A stretch of DNA of 64,000 bases from Halobaculum sp. CBA1158 (GTDB lineage: Archaea > Halobacteriota > Halobacteria > Halobacteriales > Haloferacaceae). A program made the position numbers and the translations under genes. How positions within the stretch are numbered: position 1 is the stretch's first letter; each line of letters opens with the position of its first letter. The stretch lies in assembly GCF_021431925.1 (NCBI RefSeq), contig NZ_CP090371.1, forward strand, positions 1,736,001-1,800,000. The letters are read 5' to 3'. Of the stretch, positions 21,552 through 26,038 are shown one piece after another. The notes beneath the pieces were generated by a model that was not told the origin of the DNA, ran no database searches, and saw only the letters and a program-made list of their open reading frames with translations.

Positions 21552-21711
21552 TGAACCCCTTCGTGAGTCGATTTGAACAGACGAGTCGCATCGCACCGTC
21601 GATCGGCGACCCGCCCGCCCGGAGCGAACCGAATATATAACCGTTTTCCCGAGTTGTCGAGTCGACAGGTTCCTGTAGCAGTTGATACGTGTCGGTACTG
21701 ATCCCCTAGCC

Positions 21712-22545
21712 GTGAGCGACAAACTCACGCGTCGCCGCGTTCTCGCCGGCGGCGCAACGGCCCTCCTGGCATCGGTAGCCGGCTGTAGCGGCGCGACGCC
21801 GTTCGTCGGCAAGCGGACCGAACGAACCGAAACGATCGCCGTCGACGGCGCGTCCTCGCTCGCCGTGCGCACCGATCTCGGCGACGTGAGCATTCAGACC
21901 GCCGACCGCGACGACATCGACGTACGGATCGTGAAGCAGGCGAGTTCGGTCACGGCCGACCTCTCGGACCTCTCCTTTCGCGTCGACCGCGCGGGAGAAG
22001 AGCTCCTCCTCTCCTCGGAGTTCACCGGGGACACCGAGTTCTTCGGCGGGCAGCCGTCGATGTCGCTCGACGTGACTCTTCCGGAGTCGCTTCAGGTCTC
22101 GTCGATCCGCAGCAGGGTCGGCGACGTGACCGCCGAGGGCGTCGCCGGCGACCTCGACGCCGAAACCGACACCGGCGACCTCCGCCTCCGAGGGGTCTCG
22201 GGGGCCGTCCGCGCGACGGCGTCGGTCGGCGACGTGGTCGTTGAGCGTCCGGACGCGATCGAGCGCGTGACGGCGAGAACCGGCGACGTGACCGTCGACG
22301 TGCCGACGGTCGACGCCGACACGACGATCAGCTCGCGGACGGGCGACGTGTCGGCCGCCGTGACTCCGGAGGCCGACGCCGACCTCACCGCGCGAACGGA
22401 CACCGGCGACGTGTCGGTCGACGGACTCCCGCTGTCGGATTCGACCCGCACGGACGAACTCGTGACCGGTACGCTCGGCTCGGGCGGTCCCTCCCTCGAC
22501 ATCGAGACCCGAACCGGCGACGTATCGGTGTCCCCGCTGAACTGA
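21712..22545 (+). CDS. Tat-exported lipoprotein with DUF4097-type beta-strand repeats
   Basis: A 277-residue secreted protein. The GTG at 21712 starts MSDKLTRRRVLAGGATALLASVAGC, which has a twin-arginine signal (TRRRVLAGG) and a lipobox ending in SVAGC, so it should be exported folded and lipid-anchored. The rest is a regular series of short strands with recurring (T/V)GDV motifs (DLGDVSIQT, RVGDVTAEG, DTGDLRLRG, RTGDVTVDV, RTGDVSAAV, DTGDVSVDG, RTGDVSVSP), a beta-helix-like DUF4097 pattern. The function is unknown; related proteins sit on cell surfaces. It is a single gene after the tRNA region. Confidence 0.85.
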   Translation: MSDKLTRRRVLAGGATALLASVAGCSGATPFVGKRTERTETIAVDGASSLAVRTDLGDVSIQTADRDDIDVRIVKQASSVTADLSDLSFRVDRAGEELLLSSEFTGDTEFFGGQPSMSLDVTLPESLQVSSIRSRVGDVTAEGVAGDLDAETDTGDLRLRGVSGAVRATASVGDVVVERPDAIERVTARTGDVTVDVPTVDADTTISSRTGDVSAAVTPEADADLTARTDTGDVSVDGLPLSDSTRTDELVTGTLGSGGPSLDIETRTGDVSVSPLN

Positions 22546-22908: not shown

Positions 22909-23568
22909 TCAGGGATCCGTCGTGGCGTCGTGGTCGTCGGCCGCCCGGCCGTCGGCGAGCGTCGCCGTGACGACGGCCGAGACGCGGCCGAGGAGGTTCG
23001 CGGCGTACAGCGTGAGCAGTCCCACGACGACGCCGACGCCGGCGGCGGCGAGCGCGCGTGCGAGCGTGTCGATCCGGTAGACGCCGAGCCGGTAGTCGAT
23101 CCGGAGGAACTCGCCGTACGCCAGCGGCGCGGCGAGCAGGCCCCAGGTGAGCGAGAACCCTGTCGACAACACGACGAGGGCGACGATGCCCAGCGCCATG
23201 CGCCAACAGAGGTACAGCAGTCCCGTCCACGTCTCGCGGGCGAACACGAGTTGCTTGCAGAACTCCGCGACGCCGAGTTCCCGAGAGGGGAACCACGGCG
23301 ACACCTCGACGCCGAGCAGGCGGCCCGTCAGCGTCGCGTCCGCCCAGACGACCGCGACCGCCAGTAACAGCGTGGCCACCACAGCGACCGGCGCGAGGAT
23401 CGTGACGCTCAGCCCCAGCGACAGCGAGCCGGCGATCGGGAACACGACCAGGTAGCCGATCCCGATCGGGACTGCCAGCAGGAGGTACAGGAGGCTTCGG
23501 TACGTGCGGGGGTCGAGGGGCGCGCTGGCGAACGAGGCCGTCGAGCCCGGAGGGTCGGTTGTCGTCAT
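22909..23568 (-). CDS. Sensor-domain membrane protein without a kinase
   Basis: A 219-residue protein of the Sensor family (PF13796 type), with about four membrane helices. Typical elements are DPRTYRSLLYLLLAVPIGIGYLVVF near the N terminus (about 18-42) and the central FARETWTGLLYLCWRMALGI. In many bacteria this domain is the input of a histidine kinase; here no kinase part follows. It ends a cluster with a helix-turn-helix regulator and two small membrane proteins, and has a paralogue on the other side of that regulator (24807-25583). It probably senses or modulates membrane state, but no ligand is known. Confidence 0.75.
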   Translation of the reverse strand: MTTTDPPGSTASFASAPLDPRTYRSLLYLLLAVPIGIGYLVVFPIAGSLSLGLSVTILAPVAVVATLLLAVAVVWADATLTGRLLGVEVSPWFPSRELGVAEFCKQLVFARETWTGLLYLCWRMALGIVALVVLSTGFSLTWGLLAAPLAYGEFLRIDYRLGVYRIDTLARALAAAGVGVVVGLLTLYAANLLGRVSAVVTATLADGRAADDHDATTDP

Positions 23569-23671
23569 GCGGCGATCGCGGCCTCGGTCCGAACGACCGT
23601 ATACCCGGAGCGCCGCCTGTTCGTCCGACGGACCGTCGAAGGATATTAATACGAGATCGATCCGGTCCGGG

Positions 23672-23956
23672 TCAGGTGCCGTCCAGCGAGTAGATCAGCG
23701 CGAGCAGGCCGACGACGTTCGCACAGAGCACCGCGAGCAGCGTCGTCGCGTCGTCGAGGCCGGCGAGCGGCGCGAGGCCGTAGCTGATGCAGAAGGGAGC
23801 GACGGCGACGAACGCGATGCCGACGGCGAGGTAGCGCATCGTCGCGCTGTCGTGCCGGCGGTATCCCCGGTAGGCGACGGCGGTGACGGCTGTCCCGGCC
23901 AGCGCCGTCGCCGCGGCCGTCGCGAACAGCACCGTCGCGGCGTCAACGGCGGTCAT
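23672..23956 (-). CDS. Small three-helix membrane protein (DUF7521-like)
   Basis: A 94-residue protein with three hydrophobic helices (about 6-28, 40-62 and 68-90) and an RGYRRHDSATMRYLAVGIAF loop typical of haloarchaeal DUF7521 proteins. It overlaps the preceding gene by 14 bp in another frame, so the two are translated together. Its relation to the next gene upstream (same family pattern Y-x-G/D-Y-R) suggests tandem duplication. The function is unknown; such genes commonly follow small winged-helix regulators in haloarchaea. Confidence 0.7.
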   Translation of the reverse strand: MTAVDAATVLFATAAATALAGTAVTAVAYRGYRRHDSATMRYLAVGIAFVAVAPFCISYGLAPLAGLDDATTLLAVLCANVVGLLALIYSLDGT

Positions 23957-24299
23957 AGATCACCCCCAACACGAGCAGGAGCCCGATCAGTTGACAGCCG
24001 GTCACCGCCAGCGAGCGGAGCGTCGGGTCCGTCTCCGGGAGGTTCGACAGCACGAGCCTGAGCAGGATCGGCACCGTCGTCACGAGCACGAGGCCGACAC
24101 CGAGCAGGAGCCTGCGTCGGCCGCCGGTGTCCCGGTAGCCGTCGTACAGCCTGCGCGCGAGATACAGCGAGAGCACCGTCGCGACGAACAGCGCGGCGAA
24201 CACCAGAAGCACGACAGTCGGCGACCCGCCGGTGGCGGCCTGGATCGGGGTCGCGAACGCGGCGGGCGCGGGGAGTTCGGTGGAGAGCAGTCCTGTCAT
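23943..24299 (-). CDS. Small membrane protein, second DUF7521-like copy
   Basis: A 118-residue protein with three hydrophobic helices after a short exported-looking N terminus (MTGLLSTELPAPAAFATP). The central loop RRLYDGYRDTGGRRRLLLGVGL matches the family pattern of its neighbour. Its ATG overlaps the regulator's stop (ATGA, 4 bp), and its own 3' end overlaps the next gene, so regulator and both membrane proteins form one tightly packed operon. The function is unknown. Confidence 0.7.
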   Translation of the reverse strand: MTGLLSTELPAPAAFATPIQAATGGSPTVVLLVFAALFVATVLSLYLARRLYDGYRDTGGRRRLLLGVGLVLVTTVPILLRLVLSNLPETDPTLRSLAVTGCQLIGLLLVLGVIYDRR

Positions 24300-24640
24300 T
24301 TGAACCCCTCGTAGAGCCTGGTGAAGCGGTCGGCGGCGTCCTGCTCGGGCCGGTCGACCGTGATCTCGAAGCCGGTCTCTGACAGCTCGAGGTGGACCGC
24401 CCGGACGCTGGCGCGGTAGGTCTTGTAGTGGTGGCCGTCCGGGTCGAGTTGCTGTTCGTCCTCCAGGAGGCCCGCGTCCTGGAGGCGCTGTACCCTGCGG
24501 TACACGGTCGAGGAGTCGGCGTCACACGCCTCGCTCAGCGTCTCGACCGACTTCGTGTCGCCGTAGGTCTCCCGGAGGATCGTCCGCGCGTACTCGTCGC
24601 CGAGGAGGTCGACGATCCCGTCGCCGTCGTCCTCGGCCAT
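24296..24640 (-). CDS. ArsR-like winged-helix transcriptional regulator
   Basis: A 114-residue regulator. The ATG at 24640 gives MAEDDGDGIVDLLGDEYARTILRE, then a helix-turn-helix at about 30-70 with LSEACDADSSTVYRRVQRLQDAGLLEDEQ, and a beta-wing (HHYKTYRASVRAVHLEL). This is the common haloarchaeal ArsR/HTH_20-type regulator. An upstream ATG at 24736 would add 32 residues of poor quality. It leads the operon with two DUF7521-like membrane proteins, and faces a divergent Sensor-domain gene whose promoter lies in the 166-bp gap, so it may control both directions. Confidence 0.85.
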   Translation of the reverse strand: MAEDDGDGIVDLLGDEYARTILRETYGDTKSVETLSEACDADSSTVYRRVQRLQDAGLLEDEQQLDPDGHHYKTYRASVRAVHLELSETGFEITVDRPEQDAADRFTRLYEGFK

Positions 24641-24806
24641 CGTCACAGGTGTCTCGATGACCCACGAAAAGCGTCCCGAATCGGCTGTCGGTAGCGACAC
24701 ATCGCCTGCGACTTCCCGGTGGATTCGGGTAAACACGGGGCCGCGGTTGCAGGCTGGCCGGATCGACCCGAACGTTTATGATCGGTGCTCGGACAGCTTC
24801 GATCGC

Positions 24807-25583
24807 ATGTCGCGAAGCGCGAGCGTCCGACTACGACGCGGGGTCAGGTCGTTTCTCGCGTCGCCGTTGCGCCCGCAGACGTATCTCAATCTGCTGTACC
24901 TCTCGCTTGCGGTCCCGCTGGGATTCGCGTACTTCATGCTACTGGCGATCGGGGTTCCGATCGGTCTCGGGCTGGCGGTCGTCGTCGTCGGGATCCCGCT
25001 GCTCGTGCTGGTGATCGCGGTCTCGCTCGGCCTCGCGACCGTCGAACGACGCCTCGCGACGTTCCTCCTCGGCGTCGACATGGATCGTGACACCGGTCGG
25101 CTCGACGCCGACTCCCGGCGCGAACGGATCGTCGCGGTCGCCACCGACCGGGATACCTGGACGGCGCTCGTGTACTTGCCGAGCAAACTCCTCCTCGGGG
25201 TGGCGTCGTTCACCGTCATCACTACCGTGGTGACGACCGGTGCTAGCCTCCTGTTGGTTCCGCTGTACTACGATCAGCCCGGCCTGTACGTCGGCGTCGT
25301 CACCGATCGCCCGGTCGAACTCCACCCCGCGCTGTACTTCGGTTGGAACCGACTGCTGGTCGGCTACGAGACGGTGTTCCGGGTGGAGGCCTGGCGAGTC
25401 ACGACCCTCGGCGAGGCGCTCGCGGTCGCCGCGGTCGGCGCGTTCGTCGTGCTGGCCGGCCTGCAACTGCTGAACTGGCTCGCACGGCTGTCGGGATGGT
25501 ACACCCGAGTCATGCTCGGGGACACCTACGACGTGATCGGCGCGACCCGTCGCGCGCTCGACCGCGGGACCCGCGGCGCGTAG
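24807..25583 (+). CDS. Sensor-domain membrane protein, paralogue of 22909-23568
   Basis: A 258-residue protein with about five membrane helices. It shares with the other copy the opening LRPQTYLNLLYLSLAVPLGFAYF and the central ATDRDTWTALVYLPSKLLLGV. The extra length is a middle segment (LLGVDMDRDTGRLDADSRRERIV) and a C-terminal helix followed by ARLSGWYTRVMLGDTYDVIG. No kinase domain is attached. The ATG at 24807 lies about 28 nt after AACGTTTATGATC (24770-24782), a likely TATA region. It is divergent from the winged-helix regulator. Confidence 0.75.
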   Translation: MSRSASVRLRRGVRSFLASPLRPQTYLNLLYLSLAVPLGFAYFMLLAIGVPIGLGLAVVVVGIPLLVLVIAVSLGLATVERRLATFLLGVDMDRDTGRLDADSRRERIVAVATDRDTWTALVYLPSKLLLGVASFTVITTVVTTGASLLLVPLYYDQPGLYVGVVTDRPVELHPALYFGWNRLLVGYETVFRVEAWRVTTLGEALAVAAVGAFVVLAGLQLLNWLARLSGWYTRVMLGDTYDVIGATRRALDRGTRGA

Positions 25584-25615: not shown

Positions 25616-26038
25616 CTACTCGCGACCGCCCCAGATCCGTTTGTCCTCGACGATGGAGACAGTCATCGGCTCGCTGACCTCGATCTGACACGAGAGTCGC
25701 GGGTACCCGAACCGCTCCGCCAGGCGGTCGTGCCAGTGATCGGAGCCGGGCCCCTCGAGCACGCGGACGCCGCACGTGGCACACAGTCCGCGTCCGCCGC
25801 AGTTCGCTCGGGCCGTCACGGCCGCGTACGGAGAGCAGTCGACCCCCGTCCCCGTCTCCGCGTCGGCCGCGAGGAGCGCGTCCCGGAGGATCGTTCCGCG
25901 CTCGACTCGCACCGTTGCCTCGCCGTCGGCGTGTCGGACGCGGATCGGTACCCGGTCGGCCGCCGAGTCCGTTCCGTCCGCCCCGTCGACCGGCTCTGTC
26001 GCATCGGCTTCACCGGCCTTATCGGTCGCGTCAGTCAC
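25616..26038 (-). CDS. 2Fe-2S ferredoxin-like protein
   Basis: A 140-residue electron carrier from the GTG at 26038. After an acidic leader (about 1-30) comes the beta-grasp ferredoxin domain. Cysteine ligands lie in DCSPYAAVTARANCGGRGLCATCGV and later in RLSCQIEVSEP; the CGGxGLCxTC pattern is characteristic of the 2Fe-2S family. The C terminus contains VEDKRIWGG. The frame stays open upstream only because queC lies opposite. It is divergent from queC with a 99-bp gap. The redox partner is unknown. Confidence 0.8.
   Translation of the reverse strand: MTDATDKAGEADATEPVDGADGTDSAADRVPIRVRHADGEATVRVERGTILRDALLAADAETGTGVDCSPYAAVTARANCGGRGLCATCGVRVLEGPGSDHWHDRLAERFGYPRLSCQIEVSEPMTVSIVEDKRIWGGRE

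Follow-up and report, generated by a model that had tools for sequence, protein, structure and literature searches.

A gene cluster of Halobaculum sp. CBA1158 that encodes a winged-helix regulator, two small membrane proteins of the DUF7521 type, two Sensor (PF13796) proteins and a DUF4097 (Toastrack) protein is a real, conserved module for which no prior description was found as far as the literature searches reach. These searches retrieved no literature on DUF7521, and the accessible portions of PMC9239133 and PMC5847659 contain no description of a cluster combining these components. The favored reading, to which a probability of about 55% is assigned, is that this is a conserved kinase-free transmembrane module in which the regulator would serve as the output, the DUF7521-type proteins as membrane partners that hold or license it, and the Sensor pair together with the Toastrack protein as the part that senses the envelope and is itself partly controlled by the regulator.

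Gene content and protein architecture

The coordinates below are positions in the window, i.e., the entire 64,000-nt stretch analysed (NZ_CP090371.1, 1,736,001–1,800,000), and gene starts are estimates. The regulator (R, 24296–24640, minus strand) is a protein of 114 amino acids with an HTH_20/ArsR-type winged helix (HTH_20, 35.1 bits, Pfam cut-off 27) and the C-terminal motif DRFTRLYEGFK; its start follows the family alignments, the ORF caller having placed it at 24736. Downstream of R are D1 (23943–24299, minus strand), which overlaps R by 4 bp (ATGA), and D2 (23672–23956, minus strand), which overlaps D1 by 14 bp, followed on the same strand by the Sensor gene S2 (22909–23568, minus strand; 67 bits to PF13796, cut-off 28.2). 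The other Sensor gene, S1 (24807–25583, plus strand; 103 bits, same cut-off), is divergent from R, and here too the family alignments favor a start that differs from that of the ORF caller (24657). S1 and S2 are the only PF13796 genes found in this genome and, according to the tree, are old paralogues, each keeping its position. The earlier note had described a five-gene cluster at 22909–25583 with a regulator overlapping two small membrane proteins and Sensor proteins on both sides, and open reading frames and Pfam matches place all five genes where it had put them; it missed, however, the regulatory elements discussed below and the DUF4097 gene (21712–22545, plus strand; 48.1 bits to Toastrack, cut-off 22.9), the GTG start of which is kept in 7 genomes of the same genus (ORF caller start, 21682). 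On the other side, a 2Fe-2S-ferredoxin-like ORF recognized by eye (25616–26000, minus strand) converges on S1, with its end at a distance of about 30 bp from the S1 stop codon, and does not look like a part of the module.

D2 is a member of DUF7521 (PF24365, 46.7 bits, cut-off 27). D1 alone yields no Pfam match above the cut-off, DUF7521 included, but an HHalign comparison of the D1 family profile with the D2 profile detects similarity with the probability of 98% (E 1e-13), and DUF7521 is matched by 4 of 11 D1 family members in Pfam. Both proteins contain three hydrophobic segments, the first and second of which are joined by a strongly basic loop (YRGYRR in D2). Basic loops face the cytoplasm under the positive-inside rule, so that this loop is predicted to be cytoplasmic. 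The structural model of S1 (pLDDT 89.4) consists of an N-terminal helix and four long, presumably membrane-spanning helices, with a small beta element (residues 170–193) between TM3 and TM4, which is expected to lie outside if the N-terminus is inside; a Foldseek search of the PDB with this model gives no match at E≤0.001. In the model of R (pLDDT 84, lower at the C-terminus), the winged helix leads into additional strands and a C-terminal helix. The fold closest to that of R is found in Phr, the Pyrococcus heat-shock regulator (2p4w, E 1.5e-5), which is larger (about 200 amino acids) and for which we know of no membrane partner. Twin-arginine (Tat) and lipobox motifs mark exported lipoproteins, and the DUF4097 proteins open with both in 33 of 33 genes by regular expression; the product of this gene, for which a phmmer search of the PDB returns nothing meaningful, is accordingly predicted to be a Tat-exported lipoprotein.

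Conservation of the cluster and spread of the R-D dyad

PF13796 was surveyed in 60 related genomes, Halobaculum sp. CBA1158 being one of them, and was detected at E≤0.001 in 30 and above the cut-off in 25. Among 29 Sensor-bearing loci (L036–L064, with the weakest Sensor matches, L027–L031, left out), R and D adjoin the Sensor gene in 20, and 14 of these 20 also contain a DUF4097 gene; R is missing from the other nine (L044, L047, L048, L050, L055, L058, L060, L062 and L064). In L055 (4681–6800), the Sensor gene is found beside genes for a CBS-domain protein and a ZIP zinc transporter. At the level of whole genomes, Sensor (25 carriers) and DUF4097 (23 carriers) occur together in 19 of the 60 (Fisher p 4e-7). 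The loci, in this set and in the next, share descent, so that their counts are not independent.

A second set was anchored on R alone, by a search of GTDB genomes in which R loci were located with two peptide patterns, one of them the R C-terminal motif. In the best 80 of the 99 confirmed haloarchaeal loci, D is the next gene after R in all 80, and in 55 of them the overlap is exactly 4 bp. Within 6 kb of R, a Sensor gene is found in 41 loci; both Sensor and DUF4097 genes are near R in 31, and the remaining 39 have no Sensor within 6 kb, so that R-D does not require one. Of the 41 Sensor-linked R loci, 33 carry the C-terminal motif in the form RFTRL[YFWHL]E, compared with 2 of the 39 others; the use of the motif as a search pattern biases the absolute counts and, to a lesser degree, the contrast between the groups. 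This contrast suggests a Sensor-specific contact, although it could also stem from common descent within an R subfamily.

The linkage of Sensor, R and DUF4097 genes recurs in differing order and orientation and with different flanks across many genera and families, and the Sensor and DUF4097 reading frames overlap in some loci (e.g., L049 and L126). Since the arrangement recurs over many genera whereas the outer neighbors of the module vary between genera, the cluster is more than a product of chance, and a chance neighborhood is rejected with either R or Sensor as the anchor. The earlier note had proposed neighborhood conservation across haloarchaea as a check, to be failed if the regulator and Sensor genes parted in relatives; the counts from both sets show that they are conserved together, and further indicate that the DUF4097 gene belongs to the cluster as well. 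No gene fusions link the R, D and S parts, and fusion was therefore dropped as evidence of contact.

The pair of R and D extends beyond this cluster. Among the matches listed, 58 of the 59 genomes sampled from the order carry DUF7521, often with several copies each; Haloferax volcanii, as a control match, also has it. Forty DUF7521 genes were picked by hand at steps through these matches, a sample that leans to strong matches because the listed ones stop before the weaker, and an R-type winged-helix gene lies upstream on the same strand in 33 of them, with a 4-bp overlap in 22 of the 33 pairs and larger gaps in two (L186 and L188). In Halobaculum sp. CBA1158, all four DUF7521 loci adjoin an R-type regulator. 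The genes thus form one conserved unit, and the regulator is tightly tied to the DUF7521 membrane proteins, which supports the interpretation of the earlier note in part; its membrane-stress relay, in which the small proteins would signal to the regulator, is a hypothesis.

Where a dyad lacks a Sensor gene, R frequently has a different membrane or export gene beside it. One family, divergent from R-D1-D2 in nine loci (L102, L111–L115, L118, L122 and L125), matches the CAAX-protease-like model Rce1 (Pfam on three of the nine members), and in most of these loci the palindrome described below lies between R and the Rce1-like gene. Other dyads are divergent from ABC exporter genes (L103, 4749–7738; L119, 4430–7709), with an ABC ATPase in both loci and a MacB_PCD/FtsX permease in L103. 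A multi-TM family of about 260–313 amino acids adjoins Sensor-less dyads in L124, L130, L135, L145, L147 and L148; the members tried have no Pfam match at E≤1e-5.

Promoter elements and the likely course of signalling

Promoters were compared in 79 R loci, 40 with and 39 without a Sensor gene (L134, the R of which was lost in gene picking, was excluded). In 21 of the 39 Sensor-less loci (0.6 in shuffled sequences), the region upstream of R contains a palindrome similar to TTCCGNNNCGGAA (also written TTCYGNNNCRGAA) with at most one mismatch, mostly about 50–60 bp from the estimated R start; its presence points to autoregulation and a divergent target. The same type of palindrome occurs in 4 of the 40 Sensor-linked loci (0.7 in shuffles), a group in which the search for a symmetric operator was negative, the top dyads reaching only 4 of 40. 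In 11 of these 40 loci, a different sequence, CCGAACGTTTAT, covers the S1 TATA region with at most one mismatch (none in shuffles). The corresponding element of the window (24754–24785, minus strand) is by far the best site, with 31.6 bits compared to 11.7 for the next best; no palindrome was found at this element, and all 7 of 7 genomes of the same genus share its block CATAAACGTTCGGG without change.

A 32-bp matrix built from 14 sites of the S1 element (L088 was excluded from training) ranks the DUF4097 promoter first among the tested promoters in 18 of 31 loci, where 3 are expected; column-permuted matrices (100 of each kind) reach at most 9 loci, or 12 when the TATA columns are kept in place. 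Removal of the TATA columns from the matrix abolishes the effect (4 of 31), and Toastrack genes of Halorubrum-type loci are present without the element at their promoters. The site at the TATA region of the DUF4097 promoter of the window (21631–21662, plus strand) is weak, ranking 10 of 127938 positions, or 6 when the two Halobaculum-group sites are taken out of the matrix. The element is sense-oriented at most of the matching DUF4097 promoters and antisense at S1, an arrangement more in keeping with an operator than with a simple core promoter. The evidence for a related element at many Toastrack promoters is suggestive only.

The best reading of these observations is that the Sensor and Toastrack proteins supply a signal to R, form its regulon, or both, and that D couples R to the membrane. 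R would be the DNA-binding output, and D1 and D2, as translationally coupled membrane partners, may hold or license R at the membrane through a presumed R-D contact. The two Sensors, together with the exported Toastrack lipoprotein, would sense the cell envelope, the presumed source of the stimulus, and would be controlled by R at least in part. An envelope change could then alter the Sensor/Toastrack assembly, which would pass the signal on to D1/D2; these would change the availability of R, probably via the R C-terminal helix and the basic cytoplasmic loop of D, and R would act on the S1 promoter, probably on the Toastrack promoter and possibly on its own. That R is the protein that binds the elements, and that the signal runs in this direction and with a given sign, are what we infer from this arrangement.

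A less probable alternative is that R and D are self-contained, with D sensing the membrane directly, and that the Sensor and Toastrack genes are only targets encoding envelope effectors that send no signal to R. The many dyads without a Sensor gene, which then lie beside CAAX-protease-like or MacB/ABC genes, are in line with this possibility, as are the conserved elements at the S1 promoter and, less clearly, at the Toastrack promoter. Against it, the R C-terminal motif occurs mainly where a Sensor gene is present, a pattern that descent of an R subfamily would also produce, and PF13796 in bacteria accompanies kinases as their input region (PMC10663231, accessible text). A loose collection of membrane genes without joint function, in which R and D alone form a unit, is very improbable: Sensor or DUF4097 genes do stand alone or far apart in some genomes (e.g., G001, G018 and G040), but the linkage recurs in varied arrangements over many genera and families, some Sensor and DUF4097 frames overlap, and promoter elements are shared.

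A two-component system split between loci, in which the Sensors would work with a histidine kinase encoded elsewhere and R-D would merely regulate the Sensor genes, is quite improbable. Its appeal derives from the HisKA_3 kinases with which bacterial PF13796 occurs according to the same source, and from Halosimplex, where three loci have a histidine-kinase-like gene downstream of the Sensor gene and in the same orientation, namely a HisKA/HATPase gene recognized by Pfam in L097 (10167–12203, plus strand) and ORFs found by regular expression in L098 and L101. However, MutS takes the place of the kinase gene in the fourth Halosimplex locus (L099), and the regular-expression scan of 113 loci lists only nine kinase-like ORFs, in eight loci. 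In the window cluster (L036), Pfam identifies no kinase domain in S1 or S2 and no histidine kinase or receiver domain in any of the cluster proteins, and no kinase-like or HATPase-like ORF was found by regular expression in the surrounding 13 kb; a two-component system in this cluster is thus rejected. The earlier description of the Sensors as kinase-less holds for the two proteins and for these 13 kb, whereas the three Halosimplex loci have the kinase-like neighbor.

Relation to known systems and implications

The module is a variant of the kinase-free systems that combine a regulator with a membrane partner, built from haloarchaeal families. According to the accessible part of PMC6193735, the LytTR regulatory systems (HdrRM and BrsRM) are likewise kinase-free small operons with the regulator gene upstream of that for a membrane inhibitor, are autoregulated, have repeats upstream of the promoter and, in some cases, ABC-transporter neighbors; HdrM contains DUF2154, a domain that has been unified with Toastrack (PMC11237479, accessible part). 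Here, too, the regulator gene precedes the membrane gene, in all of the 80 R loci kept as the best of 99. Compared with the LytTR systems as presented there, the module differs in the regulator, a winged helix rather than LytTR, and in the membrane partner, DUF7521 rather than DUF3021 or DUF2154. R matches HTH_20 and other winged-helix models in Pfam but no LytTR model at E≤1, and membership in these systems is rejected for want of the LytTR domain.

The HAAS-PadR-like winged-helix dyads, proposed as an alternative to two-component systems, are also pairs of a winged-helix protein and a partner, and the accessible part of PMC11237479 names Toastrack and MacB/FtsX proteins among their neighbors, as seen around the R-D dyads. 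Unlike the regulators of these dyads, R scores above the cut-off with HTH_20 and only 22.2 bits with PadR (cut-off 27); D, unlike their partner, is a three-segment membrane protein without a HAAS/DUF1700 match. No HAAS domain (DUF1700, DUF1129 or DUF1048) is detected by Pfam in the cluster proteins at E≤1, and with the defining HAAS and PadR domains absent, assignment to this class is rejected as well.

S1 and S2 share the full-length PF13796 domain with actinobacterial Sensor histidine kinases, as far as these are covered in the accessible part of PMC10663231, and differ from them in having no kinase domain and in their pairing with a winged-helix–DUF7521 dyad. Among the six cluster proteins, Pfam finds no PspA, PspC or LiaI-LiaF-TM match that would indicate a phage-shock (Psp/Lia) system. 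In the Methanosarcina pair MM2440-MM2441, the regulator comes second, judging from the accessible text of PMC3510493. CsmR of Haloferax was considered as a possible link, and none was found in the available portion of PMC13286277.

A broader proposal, tentative and at slightly under even odds, is that winged-helix–DUF7521 dyads constitute a general, unrecognized class of kinase-free haloarchaeal signalling systems, each coupled to its own kind of membrane or export module. The locus described here would then be the form that senses the envelope, with the Sensors and an exported Toastrack lipoprotein conveying the state of the surface to R. In our judgement, little is known of how haloarchaea relay envelope signals to transcription other than by two-component systems. 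With a dyad in almost all genomes sampled from the order, an operator-like palindrome and few genes per module, such systems are testable in a genetically tractable group, H. volcanii itself being a carrier of DUF7521. A Toastrack protein with an export signal also bears on the published view of Toastrack as an intracellular platform, which is argued in the accessible part of PMC11237479. Taken together, a predicted exported lipoprotein, two Sensors, a pair of small membrane proteins and a regulator expected to bind DNA look like a kinase-free route for signals from the cell surface to the DNA.
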